The notes under the pieces: generated by a model
Databases searched by the model: none
What the model was told of the DNA's origin: nothing
The model's input: the letters and a program-made list of their open reading frames with translations, nothing else
Made by a program: the position numbers and the translations under genes
Assembly (NCBI GenBank): GCA_018873225.1
Contig: JAEILZ010000001.1
Coordinates: 7,502,001 to 7,566,000, forward strand
Direction: 5' to 3'
DNA length: 64,000 nucleotides
DNA from: [Phialemoniopsis] sp. UDSM-2020
Taxonomy: Eukaryota > Ascomycota > Sordariomycetes > Thyridiales > Thyridiaceae
Shown: positions 2,922 through 20,653 of the stretch, piece after piece
Position numbering within the stretch: position 1 is the first letter of the stretch
Layout: each line of letters opens with the position of its first letter

Positions 2922-3770
2922 GTCGTCTGACGTGGTATGTTGCGTATGTTGCCTCAGATGAGGGAATCTGCTGAGCTTGAAGTGTATGATGTGTGATAAT
3001 GCTCAGATGGCTTCATACGAAATGCCCGTCGCATCTGAGGTTCGACAGGGATGTGTAGTTTTGCTTGAGGGAGAAAGGGGTAAGGGGTGTGGGGATTCGC
3101 AGGTGATTACTCGATGAAGTGGAATTTTGAAGAATGACGAGACTGCACTTTCTCTGGCTTCCAAGATATAAATCCTGATTCGGCTCACAGAAGGTTGTTC
3201 CTTTTTTCATTTAGGTCGATTGCCTCACTGGACTCTTAAAATCGCCTGCAACAGGCACCAGAATTGCCCAGTTTACCAGCCCGTCACTTTCCATTCATTA
3301 TTTCTGCCCTGCAAAATTCCAGATTCAAGACAGCTCCTCCTGGCAAGCCAAACGACACAGGTATGCATTACATCTTGTTCACTTACCTGCTCCTTTATTC
3401 CAGGCTACATATCAGCACTCACTTCCACCATCGTGTGCATGACTTTAGTGGTCACTCCACTGTCACTTTCCCAGCGCTTGCCGACTCTGATTCGTCTATC
3501 ATTCTGACTTTGCCACACAGAATATCTGAAATGCCTTTCTAAGCCCGGTCAACATTGCTTGAGTATTGGGGAGCCAAGTCCCTCAGAACTCCTCGATTCC
3601 CTCCGCACCAAATTCCAAGTCATTGCGGATCTCGCTCTGCAAGCAGGTCATTACTCCACGAGGCCTACGACTGCAGTCGTTGTCTGTCTTGCATACCAAT
3701 CAGCTATCATCACGTTGTGATTTCCTTCGGCCTCAAACCAAGAGTGGCAGTCGCTTCACAACCCGCAGTC
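2922..3770. other. Intergenic, divergent promoter region
   Basis: This 849-bp stretch lies between two divergently transcribed genes. It is moderately pyrimidine-rich on the plus strand. The open frames in it are short, lack splice logic and show no recognisable composition. No RNA gene or repeat was seen. Confidence 0.5.
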
Positions 3771-5870
3771 ATGACCGATACCGCCATGACCGACGCCAAC
3801 GAGGGCGTCGGCAACGAGGGCTCCGGTATCGAGAGCTTTGGCAACGAGCACTTCGCCAATGCGAACTTCGCCAACGAGGGCGTCGGCAACGAGGGCTCCG
3901 GTATCGAGAGCTTTGGCAACGAGCACTTCGCCAATGCGAACTTCGCCAACGAGAAGAAGAGCAGCAGTGATGTGAGTATGCACGATGGGCCTCGAAGCGA
4001 TGCTAGCGAAGGCGGCGACACAGGTGACCGTTCATCTATGATGGACTACGAAGACGACGAGTCTCCGCTCGAGGAGGTGAGTTTATTGCCGTTTTCTTCC
4101 TATGCACTGCCTATGAGTCGAGACTTCTCATCGCTCCCTTCAATTACACATCAAGGCTCAACATTTGAAGCACTCGAGCAGACCGTACTGAGCTGATCCT
4201 TCTGCTAGTCACGCACTTCCGAGGACCTCACGTCACACTTGAAAGTCTTCGGTGTAGCACCAGATCGGACTGTATGGGACACTCCACTTGACAATTCATT
4301 CGACCATAACAGAGCACACTTCTTGCGTTTCATCATGCAAGGCACGAAGGCGCCGCCGAATGCCCCGGCGGCAAGTGTCACGCCGTCTGACAAGGAGGCC
4401 TGGGAAGATGGAATTCACCCTGAGTACAGCCTCGGCTTATTTGTGGGATTCCGTTTGGTCAATTCTCAGCCTCTTAAGGTTACCGGGGACAAAATCAAGA
4501 AGATGACGTACTTCAACAGCAAGGTTTCGTTGTTGCAGAACTACAAACTTCACGGTGAGGAGGGCTTGCCAAGTGTAACTTCTAACCAGTACCATCGAGT
4601 CGTTGTCGCTATCGACAAAGCGTACTTTGAAGAGCACACCCACAAGCCTTTTTATATCCATTACTACTCGTTGATGGGGCCCCCGGATAAGAATGGCATT
4701 TACACTGGTTACCGGTATGCTGGAGCCGGGGGAAAGACCAGGGTCCACTACCTCTCCTACTTTCATGCCGCCGCAATCTTCGCAACACAGAACGGGCTAC
4801 TGACTCAAGCCTTTGCCAAACGGATCAAGGAAGTCGTCTTTCAGAGTGATATGATTCGTGGCACGGATTCTACTACCTCTGACGTCACTGAGACCGGTGA
4901 TAAGATGGAATCCCTCTTATACGACCTGCAACTCCTGTTGACAACAGGCACAGCAGGTTCAGAGGCCAAGCAGAAGAAACATTTAGCCAGCCAGCTTTGC
5001 AACACAGTCATGTCCGCAAAGGACATCAAAGGCTTCTCAGGAGAGGACCATCAGCTGTACGAACTTCTGCGGACAGCCCGTACTATACACGGGGAAGCAA
5101 GCAGCCGCAGTGAGCTGGATGAGGCGTGGGCTTCTTTCTGCCTTGAATATCCAGTGGCGAGAGGTTGGGTCAGCGATATTAGCCACAAGGAGCGATGCCA
5201 GCTTCTGCTCGCAGTCCAAAAGACTGAGCTCAAGATTAGCCTCGTCAAGCTTCCGGAATACTTGAAGGGGCTTTTCCATCACTACAGTAACTCAGGGGCT
5301 CCGGGTCACCGCTGGGACTTTGACACAATGCAGACGAGGGCACAGGAGAGGACTGATGACTTCACAGTCTCCGCTCTCGACGAAACTCTACAACTGCAAA
5401 AGCCCGGTCCTACGAGATGGGACGCGGTCACGATTATGCAGCAACGTCTTGAGGACCTTGGCAGGACGTACAACAGGGAGCGCCTCGAGAGGATTCAGTC
5501 TCAGGGTGCTACAATACCCATTGGTTCCGAAGAGAATGGCTTCAAGATGCTGGCGTTGAGTGGGGATTACGATTCGACAAAGGCTATCATGAGTAGCTTC
5601 CATCGGCAAGGGATTTACAAGTCTGAGAGATCAATGTACAAACTTGCGGAAGGAGTCCAGGAGGTAGCCTATGACCTTAAACGTCATCAGGAGGACGCAG
5701 GCAACGTCCCAGAAGACGCGGAAGATGGCATCACAAATGGTCATGATGACGCTCATGACACGGACGATGTCATGGATAGACGTGCCGACGACTTCAGCAA
5801 CGACGATCATCTTGAGTCCACGCGTTTCACTCTCAAGGAAGAGGAAGACTCCTCATTCGATGAGATATGA
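3771..5870 (+). CDS. Uncharacterised 655-aa fungal protein with duplicated N-terminal repeat
   Basis: Exons 3771-4076 and 4209-5870; the intron starts GTGAGT and ends CTAG. I do not recognise the family. The N-terminus is acidic and low-complexity: a 25-residue unit containing EGVGNEGSGIESFGNEHFAN occurs twice in tandem. The C-terminal 550 residues look globular, rich in aromatic and charged residues, with segments such as FYIHYYSLMGPP and YLSYFHAAAIFATQNG. An acidic tail ends the protein. No signal peptide or membrane segment is seen. The ATG at 3771 follows an in-frame open stretch back to 3555 but is the first ATG with a good context close to the repeat. A nuclear or regulatory role would only be a guess. 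Confidence 0.75.
3795..3953 (+). repeat. 75-bp perfect tandem duplication inside a coding exon
   Basis: Bases 3795-3869 are repeated exactly at 3870-3944, followed by the first 9 bases of a third unit. The unit is a multiple of three, so the duplication adds 25 residues in frame. The perfect identity suggests a recent event. Confidence 0.9.
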
Positions 5871-16750: not shown

Positions 16751-17302
16751 CTAAGCGGTGAAGCTCTTGGTGAAGCTCTGGACAACGTCGCGCAGCTTCT
16801 GCTCGAGTTCCTTGCTGAGCGAGCCCTCCTTCTCAATGGTGGCGATGAGCTCGCCCTCGTTGGTCTTGAGGTGGGCAAGGAAGTCGGACTCCCACTGAAG
16901 AATCTTGTTGACAGGGACAGCGTCGAGGTAACCGTTGACACCGGCGAAAATGAGGGGAACCATCTCGTTGACAGCCATGGGAGAGTACTGCTTCTGCTTG
17001 AGAAGCTCGGTCAACTGTTGTAAGAAGCAGAATTAGCATCGCGGTGTCATAGAGGCAGCATCATACTGAGGCACTGATACTTACACGCTCACCACGCGAC
17101 AGAGTCTGCTTGGTAGCAGCATCCAGATCGGAACCGAACTGGGCGAAGGCAGCGACCTCACGGTACTGGGCCAGGAAAAGCTTGAGGGAACCGGCAACCT
17201 GCTTCATGGCCTTGAGCTGAGCGGCAGAGCCGACACGCGAGACCGACAAACCGACGTTGATGGCAGGCCGGATGCCCTTGAAGAACAGCTCAGACTCCAG
17301 GA

Positions 17303-17336
<34 letters not shown>

Positions 17337-20300
17337 AGGAATGTAAGCCGACACGTCACCGCCCTGAGTCTCGATGATGGGCAGGGCAGTCATAGAACCA
17401 CCGCCGTGAGTCTTGTTGTTCATCTTGGCGGCGCGCTCAAGGAGGCGAGAGTGAAGGTAGAAAACGTCACCGGGGTAGGCCTCACGTCCAGGAGGGCGGC
17501 GCAGAAGGAGGGACATCTGACGGTAGGCAACAGCCTGCTTGGAAAGATCGTCGTAGATGACCAGAGAATGCATGCCATTGTCCCTGAAGAACTCTAGCAA
17601 TACAATTTAGTTTTCAATATGGAGAGGGTGGAGAGGAGCTTGATAACTTACCGGAGATCGAAGCTGAAGTGTTGCAAAGATTGAAAGATTAGCACGTGTC
17701 TCAAAATTTTTGAAATGTTGAAGCGAGATGGTGCAAATGGGGAAAAGATGTAGAGAAGTTGACTGGACGTCGTCTATGCGCTTGCACGGGCGAGATTCTT
17801 GGCGTGTTTGGGCGTTTTGAGGTGAGCATCAAGCCGGCACTGGATCTCGAAGGCTTTGTCGCACACAGCACAGAAATATTTCTTGTTGACTATGTTGCGA
17901 GCCTCACGCTCCCGGCGGGCTCGAGCTGTGGCAGAAATAGGTTTCGGAGCGCCACTAGCTGCAAGTCTGAGCCGTTCTGCATGGGCTTGAGTGCGGAGGT
18001 GTTTTTGGAGAGCAACTGCTGACGCGAAAGGAGTATCGCAGTCCTCGCAGTAATGTTTTCGAGAAGCTTTTGCACGCTCACGAACACCCTTGGCGAGATC
18101 CAATACCTTGCCCGGGTGTTTTCTGGCCCAATTCTTTCGGAGCCTGTTGACTTTGGCACGGAAGCCCACAAGATCTTGAGCTCGCTCTTTAGCCCTCTGC
18201 GCTCTGGCCTTTTCGGTCAGGTACTGCTTGCGCATCTCCTTCGCCTCTTCGAGTTGTTCTGGTGTGAGATCGAAGTCACCTGGGACGGTCTCTTTGAAGG
18301 CAGTGTGGCCGCATAACGGCTCATACTGGACGTCGTCCCTTGACCATGGTAGATGTTTTGTGCAGAGAGGATCAAGAATGGACTCAAACCCGGCGAAGAA
18401 GAGGAAGGTGAAGGTCGCCTCGACAGCTACAAAACGTAGCCTGGCCCTGGGAATGATACCGACTGGGGGAATTGGTGCCCAGCAGAGTAGACCACGGTGT
18501 GCGATAGTGTAGCCCGCGTCAAGTGCCAATTGGACATGTCGAGGAATGAGGAGGCCGTTGTCATAGTTCTTGAATCTATTGTCGACTCCATACACAGCTT
18601 GTGTGCCCGACCCGATGTAGAGTTTGGGCGTGCGGCCAGCTTTCTCGAGAACGAGAGCATATACAGCCCAAGTGTTATTATCGAGAGGCGGTCCTGGAAG
18701 CGAGCGGAAAAACTCAATTGACGGGGGCGTAGGAGATTCGAGGGCCTCGAGAAGAGTGAATTCAAATGAGAGTGGTGTGGCTGCGCAGATTTGCTGGAAT
18801 GCCTCGATTTCACCGAGTATGATGGGGAAGAGAGGGTTCATGTACCAGTCGGGAGCCTCGTCTGTGATGCAACCCCAGGTGTACCCGTCGACTAGGTCGC
18901 GCAGTGCATCGAGAGCTGAATTGCTCGACGAGTCCATCTTGGCATGCCTCACGATGCATCATGCATGTCCGAGGGCGGACGGCGTCCGAGAGCAAATTTT
19001 GAAGTAGTGCACCCATTCTTGGTGGGATGCTCTTTCCAAGTTCGTGCATACCTTCCCAGACTGCTCCTGTCAGGTTGGATTGCTCCTTCCAGAAGCAAGC
19101 GCGAGCGGGAGTTTTTTTTTTTACACGCGTGGCAAGAGTTTGGCAGGCTGTCAAGGAAGGGATGTATTTGCAAAGGAAAGGAAATTTTCCAACGTGTGAG
19201 AAAAAAGGACTGTAGGAAAAATATGACTTACCTCCAGTGAAGGGAGCGAGATACTGCAGAGGGGCGGCTTCAGAAGCCGTTGCCGCTACTACGATCGAAT
19301 AACGCATAGCATCGTTCTCCTCGAGGGTCTTGACGAGCTGGGCGACGGTAGATCGCTTCTGGCCGACGGCGACGTAGACGCAGTACAGCTTCTTGGACTC
19401 GTCGTTGCCGCTGTTCCACCGCTTCTGGTTAAGCATGGCGTCGAGAGCGACGGCAGTCTTACCAGTCTGACGGTCACCAATGATCAACTCACGCTGACCA
19501 CGGCCGATGGGAACCATGGCGTCGACAGACTTGAGACCGGTCTGCACGGGCTGGTTGACGGACTGACGGGGCAGAATGCCGGGAGCCTTGAGCTGGGCAC
19601 GGCGCCTCTCCTTGGCGTTAAGGGGGCCCTTGCCATCGATGGGGTTACCGAGGGCGTCGACGACACGGCCGAGCAGCTCGGGGCCGACGGGAACATCGAC
19701 CTGGGAGTAGGTTAGTGGGATAATCAGAGCGATGGATGCAAAGGATCAAAAATCTTACAATCTCTCCGGTACGCTTGACAGTCTCACCCTCCTTGACGAG
19801 ACGATCGGAACCGAACAGCACAACACCGACCTGGCCGGCCTCGAGGTTCATGCACATGCCCTTGACGCCGGAGGCGAACCTGGAGGATAGAGTCAGCACA
19901 CAGGATAGCATGATCTGAGGCCTAGTTGGGATACGTACTCGACAAGCTCCTCGGCCTGGACGTTGGCCATACCGTGAACACGGGCGATACCATCACTGTG
20001 ATGTCGAAAGTCAGTAAATAAAATTATTTCTCCATCAATAAAAACCACGTGCGCCCGGTCATCTCAATTGAAGCGTGTTGATGCAGGTGAGGCACCAATG
20101 AGATGTGGTGTCGTGTTGTGGTGATGACGATGCACGGGCGCACGGGAAAGCACTCGGCGAAGCCGGGGTAATTGAGACGTACCCGACAGAGAGGACACGA
20201 CCGGTCTCGGCGAGGCCAGCCTCCTCCTGAACACCACGAATCCGCTGCTCGAGGATGGAAGAAACCTCGGTCGGGGTAGCCTTCGCATCGGCGGCGTAGG

Positions 20301-20653
20301 ATCGAGTCTGGATGGCGGCAGCGTTGATAGCTGCGGGTGCGGCATTTCGAGCCTAGGGGAGGGAAACACCTGGTTAGCCGAAACCCGAAAAAAGTGCTGA
20401 TGCCAGCGTGCAGCGACCACTCGACAGCTCCAAAGAGCTCAAAAAGCTCGCCCGGCCGATCCAAAATGCATGCAACAGCTCATTGAAGCTTGTTCGAGTC
20501 CCTTGCGATGGATTGAGGGCGGTCGGGGGATGGAATCGATGGAAATCGTGGGCGACCGGTCGACAGGATGAGGAGACTTACTGCCGCAACCCTGCCGGTG
20601 GCAGAGATGGCGCCAACGGCGCGAGAGGACTGGCGGAGGGCGTTCCTGAACAT
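16751..20653 (-). CDS. atp1: Mitochondrial F1F0 ATP synthase subunit alpha
   Basis: Eight exons in transcript order: 20582-20653, 20183-20352, 19939-19995, 19759-19879, 19232-19700, 17652-17663, 17085-17593, 16751-17014, encoding 557 aa, the usual size. This nuclear-encoded F1 subunit binds nucleotide and forms the alpha3beta3 hexamer in the mitochondrial matrix. The presequence [20 protein letters not shown] is basic and Ser/Ala-rich. The Walker A motif is [12 protein letters not shown], followed by [13 protein letters not shown], the Walker B region [20 protein letters not shown], and the signature [23 protein letters not shown] region with [14 protein letters not shown]. Exon 6 is only 12 nt and supplies part of GASISEFFRDNG. 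The intron before it is 1,568 bp and contains a complete GIY-YIG gene on the same strand. The first intron (229 bp) follows the presequence codons. Confidence 0.97.
17652..17663 (-). other. 12-nt microexon of atp1
   Basis: Acceptor CACTTCAG at 17664-17671 and donor GTAAGT at 17646-17651 flank CTTCGATCTCCG. Including it gives GASISEFFRDNG, as expected for the conserved G-(x3)-G/S-E-(Y/F/W)-F-R-D-N-G segment of the alpha subunit. Omitting it would delete four residues and leave the frame intact. Confidence 0.85.
17664..19231 (-). other. 1,568-bp atp1 intron hosting a complete gene
   Basis: The donor is GTAAGTC after ...CCCTTCACTGGAG and the acceptor is TTTGCAACACTTCAG, with a CTAAT branch-like motif about 30 nt upstream. 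The other introns in this gene are 58-229 bp, so this one is exceptional. It starts 294 bp before the internal gene's ATG and ends 110 bp after its stop codon, leaving room for separate transcription signals. The upstream atp1 reading frame also remains open for about 140 codons into the intron. Confidence 0.85.
17774..18937 (-). CDS. GIY-YIG nuclease-like protein with two C2H2 zinc fingers, nested in atp1 intron
   Basis: Single exon, 387 aa, ATG at 18937. Residues about 90-185 read as a GIY-YIG domain: AVYAL with Y93 in the GIY position, KLYIGSGT with YIG at 108-110, an Arg (R121) in VDNRF, a His-rich middle, and the expected late Glu (E173) in [13 protein letters not shown]. These are the residues that coordinate metal and cut DNA in this superfamily. 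A basic coiled region (about 225-290) follows. Two C2H2 fingers come next (C297/C300/H313/H319 and C356/C359/H372/H378), spaced as in the JAZ/U1 type that binds structured nucleic acid or DNA. The gene lies entirely inside an atp1 intron on the same strand. I infer a homing-endonuclease-like selfish gene; a host nuclease or a captured cellular gene are alternatives. The motif assignments are by eye. Confidence 0.8.

Follow-up and report, generated by a model that had tools for sequence, protein, structure and literature searches.

What is a complete nuclease gene doing inside a nuclear gene for the mitochondrial F1-ATPase alpha subunit, and does it behave as a host gene or as a passenger? In the 64,000-nucleotide stretch of fungal DNA analysed here (the window), part of a genome of 44.18 Mb in 11 contigs that, to judge from its Atp1 and from the fungi among its homologues' sources, probably belongs to a filamentous ascomycete, nuclear atp1 spans 16751..20653 on the minus strand. 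Its 8 exons join into a full-length F1-alpha of 557 residues, which aligns with solved alpha subunits. The introns measure, in order, 229, 187, 59, 58, 1568, 58 and 70 nt, and since the other six are 58 to 229 nt, intron 5 (17664..19231, minus strand, phase 1) is the sole very long one. As the initial annotation had it, an intact ORF of 387 codons lies on the host strand within this intron (17774..18937, minus strand). The intron begins with GTAAGT and ends with CAG, conforming to the GT-AG type, and a TGCTAAT resembling a branch point lies roughly 30 nt upstream of the 3' splice site. In five alignments with solved fungal-type alpha subunits, among the matches listed, the joined F1-alpha shows no gap across the junction of this intron, and from this restoration of a conserved protein we infer that the intron is spliced out. 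The gene model also requires a micro-exon that was absent from the initial annotation: exon 6 (17652..17663, minus strand) is only 12 nt long and flanked by two phase-1 introns, and it is needed because it restores the conserved length of the motif TG-ASIS-EFFRD, of which it encodes the center. The nuclease intron splits F1-alpha at FTG^ASISEFFRD, and the short intron 6 (58 nt, phase 1; 17594..17651, minus strand), likewise absent from the initial annotation, follows 12 nt downstream of it.

Three further features of this region were observed. The exon 5 frame meets no stop in roughly the first 420 nt of intron 5 (18810-19517, minus strand), where it runs over the beginning of the nuclease ORF in a different frame. 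An imperfect 20-nt direct repeat (80%) pairs the end of exon 5 (19245-19264) with a segment near the 3' end of the intron (17722-17741), and may be due to chance. Finally, the first 15 residues past the insertion differ by eye at four positions from 2xok, the best-matching solved alpha subunit, in an otherwise little-changed region of F1-alpha; these differences could reflect chance, escape from cutting, or an exon flank copied along with the element.

The identification of the encoded protein as a GIY-YIG nuclease was to be checked by fold prediction, and the confident prediction is indeed a GIY-YIG fold with a beta-beta-alpha-alpha-beta-alpha core, its nearest structure being the catalytic domain of I-TevI. 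The predicted catalytic domain covers residues 80-205 (18323..18700, minus strand). In the GIY-YIG superfamily, the tyrosines of the GIY and YIG motifs, an arginine and a metal-binding glutamate have catalytic roles. All four are present in the window protein as Y93, Y107, R121 and E173; the initial annotation had placed Y93, R121 and E173 correctly, and its YIG motif needs shifting from residues 108-110 to 107-109. In an alignment of 109 rows (the window protein, P0001, and 108 homologues), E173 and H211 are found in all rows, R121 in 108 (one gap), Y93 in 107 (two gaps) and Y107 in 103, the remainder being three gaps, two C and one S. The motifs themselves are looser: the 'GIY' of P0001 reads A-V-Y and an exact GIY occurs in 30 of 109 rows, while YIG or YVG is seen in 96. 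Towards the C-terminus, the two C2H2 fingers noticed earlier are both present as C-x2-C-x12-H-x5-H, namely a jaz/met-type finger at residues 295-319 (17981..18055, minus strand) and a second at about residues 354-378 (17804..17878, minus strand; coordinates derived by hand from the residues in both cases). They may help locate the target. The nuclease part of P0001 recovered no family match in Pfam (17 families listed, E up to 10), NCBIfam or PHROGs; likewise, when 27 family members were compared with Pfam, none of the best 25 of the 83 families listed was named GIY-YIG.

Beyond the window's own protein we recovered 109 distinct homologues, many of similar length and 26-49% identical to it, some of which come from named fungi of five ascomycete classes. 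A preponderance of free-standing genes among them would have spoken against a homing-like element; instead, the host context is a conserved housekeeping gene in all 20 homologues in which it is visible, the other 89 being without visible context. For 15 of the 109, the record is a gene model joining the nuclease to host exons. Seven of these are of F1-beta, encoded by atp2 (P0010 from Alternaria, P0043 from Ascochyta, P0049 from Elasticomyces, P0052 from Elsinoe, P0060 from Pyrenodesmia, P0061 from Calogaya and P0071 from Pseudocercospora), and one each of F1-alpha (atp1; P0078, Pyrenophora) and the V-ATPase A subunit (VMA1; P0046, Cadophora). Four are of BiP with its HDEL end (P0027, P0095, P0097 and P0110) and two of cytosolic Hsp70 (P0102 and P0104, the latter from Fonsecaea). 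Host sequence stands on both sides of the nuclease in P0071 and P0102, only before it in P0046 and P0061, and only after it in the other 11. Rather than real fusion proteins, these models are probably annotation mistakes that betray nesting, with the nuclease presumably located in an intron there too. In five more cases the host is given by the record name alone, which we read as the name of the gene locus: cpa2 (P0009, P0018), atp1 (P0014), V-ATPase A (P0026) and PCK1 (P0039). Separately, the four family members from Parastagonospora nodorum (P0053, P0077, P0079 and P0089) come with widely differing contig counts, which hints at possible presence/absence polymorphism.

The fused models also locate the insertions, which we placed both by direct reading and by comparison with the host proteins of the present genome and with an atp2 reference taken from P0071. 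The host part of V-ATPase A ends at YTG^ (P0046), and that of F1-beta at ALTG^ (P0061) or about LTGLTI (P0071). F1-beta resumes at ^LTVAEYFRD or ^LTLAEYFRD (P0010, P0052), or later within it (P0060, P0049, P0071), with P0043 resuming further on, at EGQD; F1-alpha of P0078 resumes around FRDNG. In the other family of hosts, the nuclease sits just before NLLGKFEL or its like in all four BiP models and in the Hsp70 model P0102. The Fonsecaea Hsp70 (P0104) reads through the NLLGKFEL site and uses another, before a different stretch of 11 residues; we also noted this second nuclease site of cytosolic Hsp70 by the 21 residues that it precedes. Judged from these protein junctions, matching conserved exon spots have evidently been used repeatedly across paralogous genes in fungi. 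In comparisons made without a control, the DNA at the sites is 60-62% identical among atp1, atp2 and VMA1 over 42 nt, which is too low to indicate a common DNA target from sequence, and 80% identical between BiP and Hsp70 over 71 nt. The present genome's own VMA1, BiP and Hsp70 are uninterrupted at the sites used elsewhere. Its own atp2 has a nuclease-free intron of 55 nt at LTGLTI^AEYFRD (L015 1607-1661), nine nucleotides past the TG site used in other fungi.

Elsewhere in this genome, a decayed relative of the nuclease with an internal stop lies at C1:7664639-7665372 (L004, about 3639-4372), some 143 kb from atp1 on the same contig. It is free-standing and apparently intergenic, next to an ORF that is presumably TatD-like, and best matches P0018 (38%). 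Five family queries against the genome gave no further convincing match beyond the atp1 copy and this one. Apart from host Hsp70 genes, the weakest leftovers had E values between 0.08, in the finger region, and 0.8. In a quick tree of 109 rows, with P0110 left out, the Hsp70-type rows make up a single group (SH-aLRT 99). For the 20 rows with a host-gene label, 7 label changes suffice, compared with 11.7 on average after shuffling, and none of 200 shuffles came out as low. The Cadophora V-ATPase copy falls within a 50-row group (support 100) together with all seven F1-beta copies and the PCK1-named row. Counting against a simple reading, none of the atp1-, vma1- and cpa2-labelled sets is a single group, and host class clusters as well (6 changes against a shuffled mean of 10.6). 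Copies from the same species are scattered as chance would have it: the 5 species concerned need 8 changes, where shuffling gave a mean of 8.2. The exception is P0049 and P0058, two near-identical Elasticomyces rows. The tree is consistent with site-specific lineages that are old and have long resided in these fungi, and is no proof of transfer between classes.

We consider it likely that the locus represents a nuclear homing-type selfish element, in which a GIY-YIG endonuclease gene is carried by a spliceosomal intron at a point where the exon sequence of atp1 is strongly conserved. The homing-like selfish gene proposed in the initial annotation thus gains support from the predicted fold, the housekeeping contexts, the use of the same spot in paralogues, and the uninterrupted state of the genome's own VMA1, BiP and Hsp70. 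The host spliceosome would excise the intron and so hide the nuclease gene, and the essential Atp1 protein would therefore be unharmed. The nuclease would be made from unspliced or separate transcripts. When nuclei of both kinds come together, it would cleave the conserved site in alleles that lack the intron, and the cut would acquire a copy of the intron through homologous repair. Conservation of the target site would hinder escape from cutting, and rare entry into the corresponding site of a paralogue would start a new lineage in that gene. The splicing, expression, cleavage, repair-driven copying and finger-based target recognition invoked here are steps that we infer, together with the element's transmission bias.

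A clearly less probable alternative is that the nuclease ORF is itself the mobile unit, which entered pre-existing, immobile introns, so that the repeated spots merely mark introns near cleavable exon sequence. Short introns do occur near the used sites, because the genome's own atp2 and atp1 each have one, respectively nine nucleotides past the TG site and 12 nt from the nuclease intron; however, its VMA1, BiP and Hsp70 are intronless at the used sites. Moreover, F1-alpha, F1-beta and V-ATPase A split before eukaryotes arose, and a shared old intron position is consequently unlikely. Both these intronless empty sites and the great age of the split among the three ATPase paralogues favor movement of intron and nuclease as a unit. 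It is improbable that the ORF is a nested host gene, formerly mobile and now retained for a cellular role such as DNA or RNA processing: the catalytic residues are conserved over a broad fungal set and the fingers belong to the jaz/met type, which includes a model whose description mentions binding of double-stranded RNA, but the homologues are spread over several unrelated host genes, are divergent from the window's nuclease, and are represented in this genome by a single intact copy plus the decayed one elsewhere.

Two further possibilities carry still less weight. That the ORF arose by chance, or is a piece of a Penelope-like or other transposon, is very improbable. GIY-YIG domains are present in some retroelements (PMC3846280), and the direct repeat near both intron ends, scored without a chance control, could be taken in the same sense. 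Against this, the nuclease gene is complete, with many homologues of similar length, the ORF has no reverse transcriptase match, and the longest ATG ORF in 1000 single-base shuffles of the intron averaged 90 aa and never exceeded 248. We give almost no credence to a self-splicing group I or II intron relocated to the nucleus with its enzyme, despite GIY-YIG enzymes being common in fungal mitochondrial introns according to the consulted portion of one account (PMC7487136). Against it stand the GTAAGT and CAG ends of intron 5 and its branch-like motif, and an Rfam scan of 17400-19500 up to E 1 yielded no group I or II match, although a strongly diverged ribozyme core could escape Rfam; the sole match was to an unrelated lncRNA (E 0.66), which we ascribe to chance.

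The preferred reading, a homing-type element in a spliceosomal intron, has partial precedents. I-TevI and other GIY-YIG homing endonucleases share the predicted catalytic fold and residues, and I-TevI, like the predicted layout of the window protein, has its DNA-binding region C-terminal to the nuclease; I-TevI, however, resides in a phage group I intron. The VMA1 intein PI-SceI is likewise a selfish endonuclease in a fungal nuclear rotary-ATPase gene, but it is of the LAGLIDADG type and is removed at the protein level. The GIY-YIG or LAGLIDADG genes in group I introns of fungal mitochondria are, as far as the consulted excerpt goes, intron-borne fungal homing genes as well, yet their introns are organellar and self-splicing as opposed to nuclear and spliceosomal (PMC7487136); the homing genes of nuclear rDNA, as outlined in the extracts used, share the nuclear setting but lie within group I introns of ribosomal genes (PMC9548176, PMC3679873). 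The closest likeness is to the 'shintrons' of mirusviruses, which, in the sections of that study available to us, are spliceosomal GT-AG introns of conserved genes that carry endonuclease genes, including GIY-YIG ones, and show target-gene preference, an association stated there not to have been previously observed (PMC12768974). A predicted endonuclease gene within a GT-AG intron lacking group I/II signatures in Rfam is also what intron 5 presents. The likeness drawn here is one of features, and there are differences: going by the same sections, shintrons occur in giant DNA viruses, whereas here the hosts are fungal nuclear housekeeping genes, the nuclease combines a GIY-YIG domain with two C2H2 fingers, and the same spot is used in paralogues (PMC12768974). 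Among the open-licence PMC papers listed, judged mostly by title or abstract, we found no report of endonuclease-bearing spliceosomal introns in fungal nuclear protein-coding genes.

The origin and spread of spliceosomal introns is an open question, and we tentatively propose, with less than even confidence, that the nuclei of filamentous ascomycetes host endogenous, previously unreported spliceosomal homing introns, which move as intron-plus-nuclease units among alleles and paralogous housekeeping genes. Decay of the nuclease would leave behind short, ordinary introns, making these elements a targeted source of new spliceosomal introns; atp1 intron 6 may be a remnant of this kind, as may the short atp2 intron that lies nine nucleotides beyond the same site. 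A site-specific element driven by a nuclease in essential genes of fungal nuclei would constitute a natural homing element in nuclear protein genes, along with a GIY-YIG family unrecognized by Pfam, NCBIfam and PHROGs. It would also open spliceosomal intron homing to ordinary genetics, where the proposal has so far concerned mirusviruses, which are known from environmental genomes.
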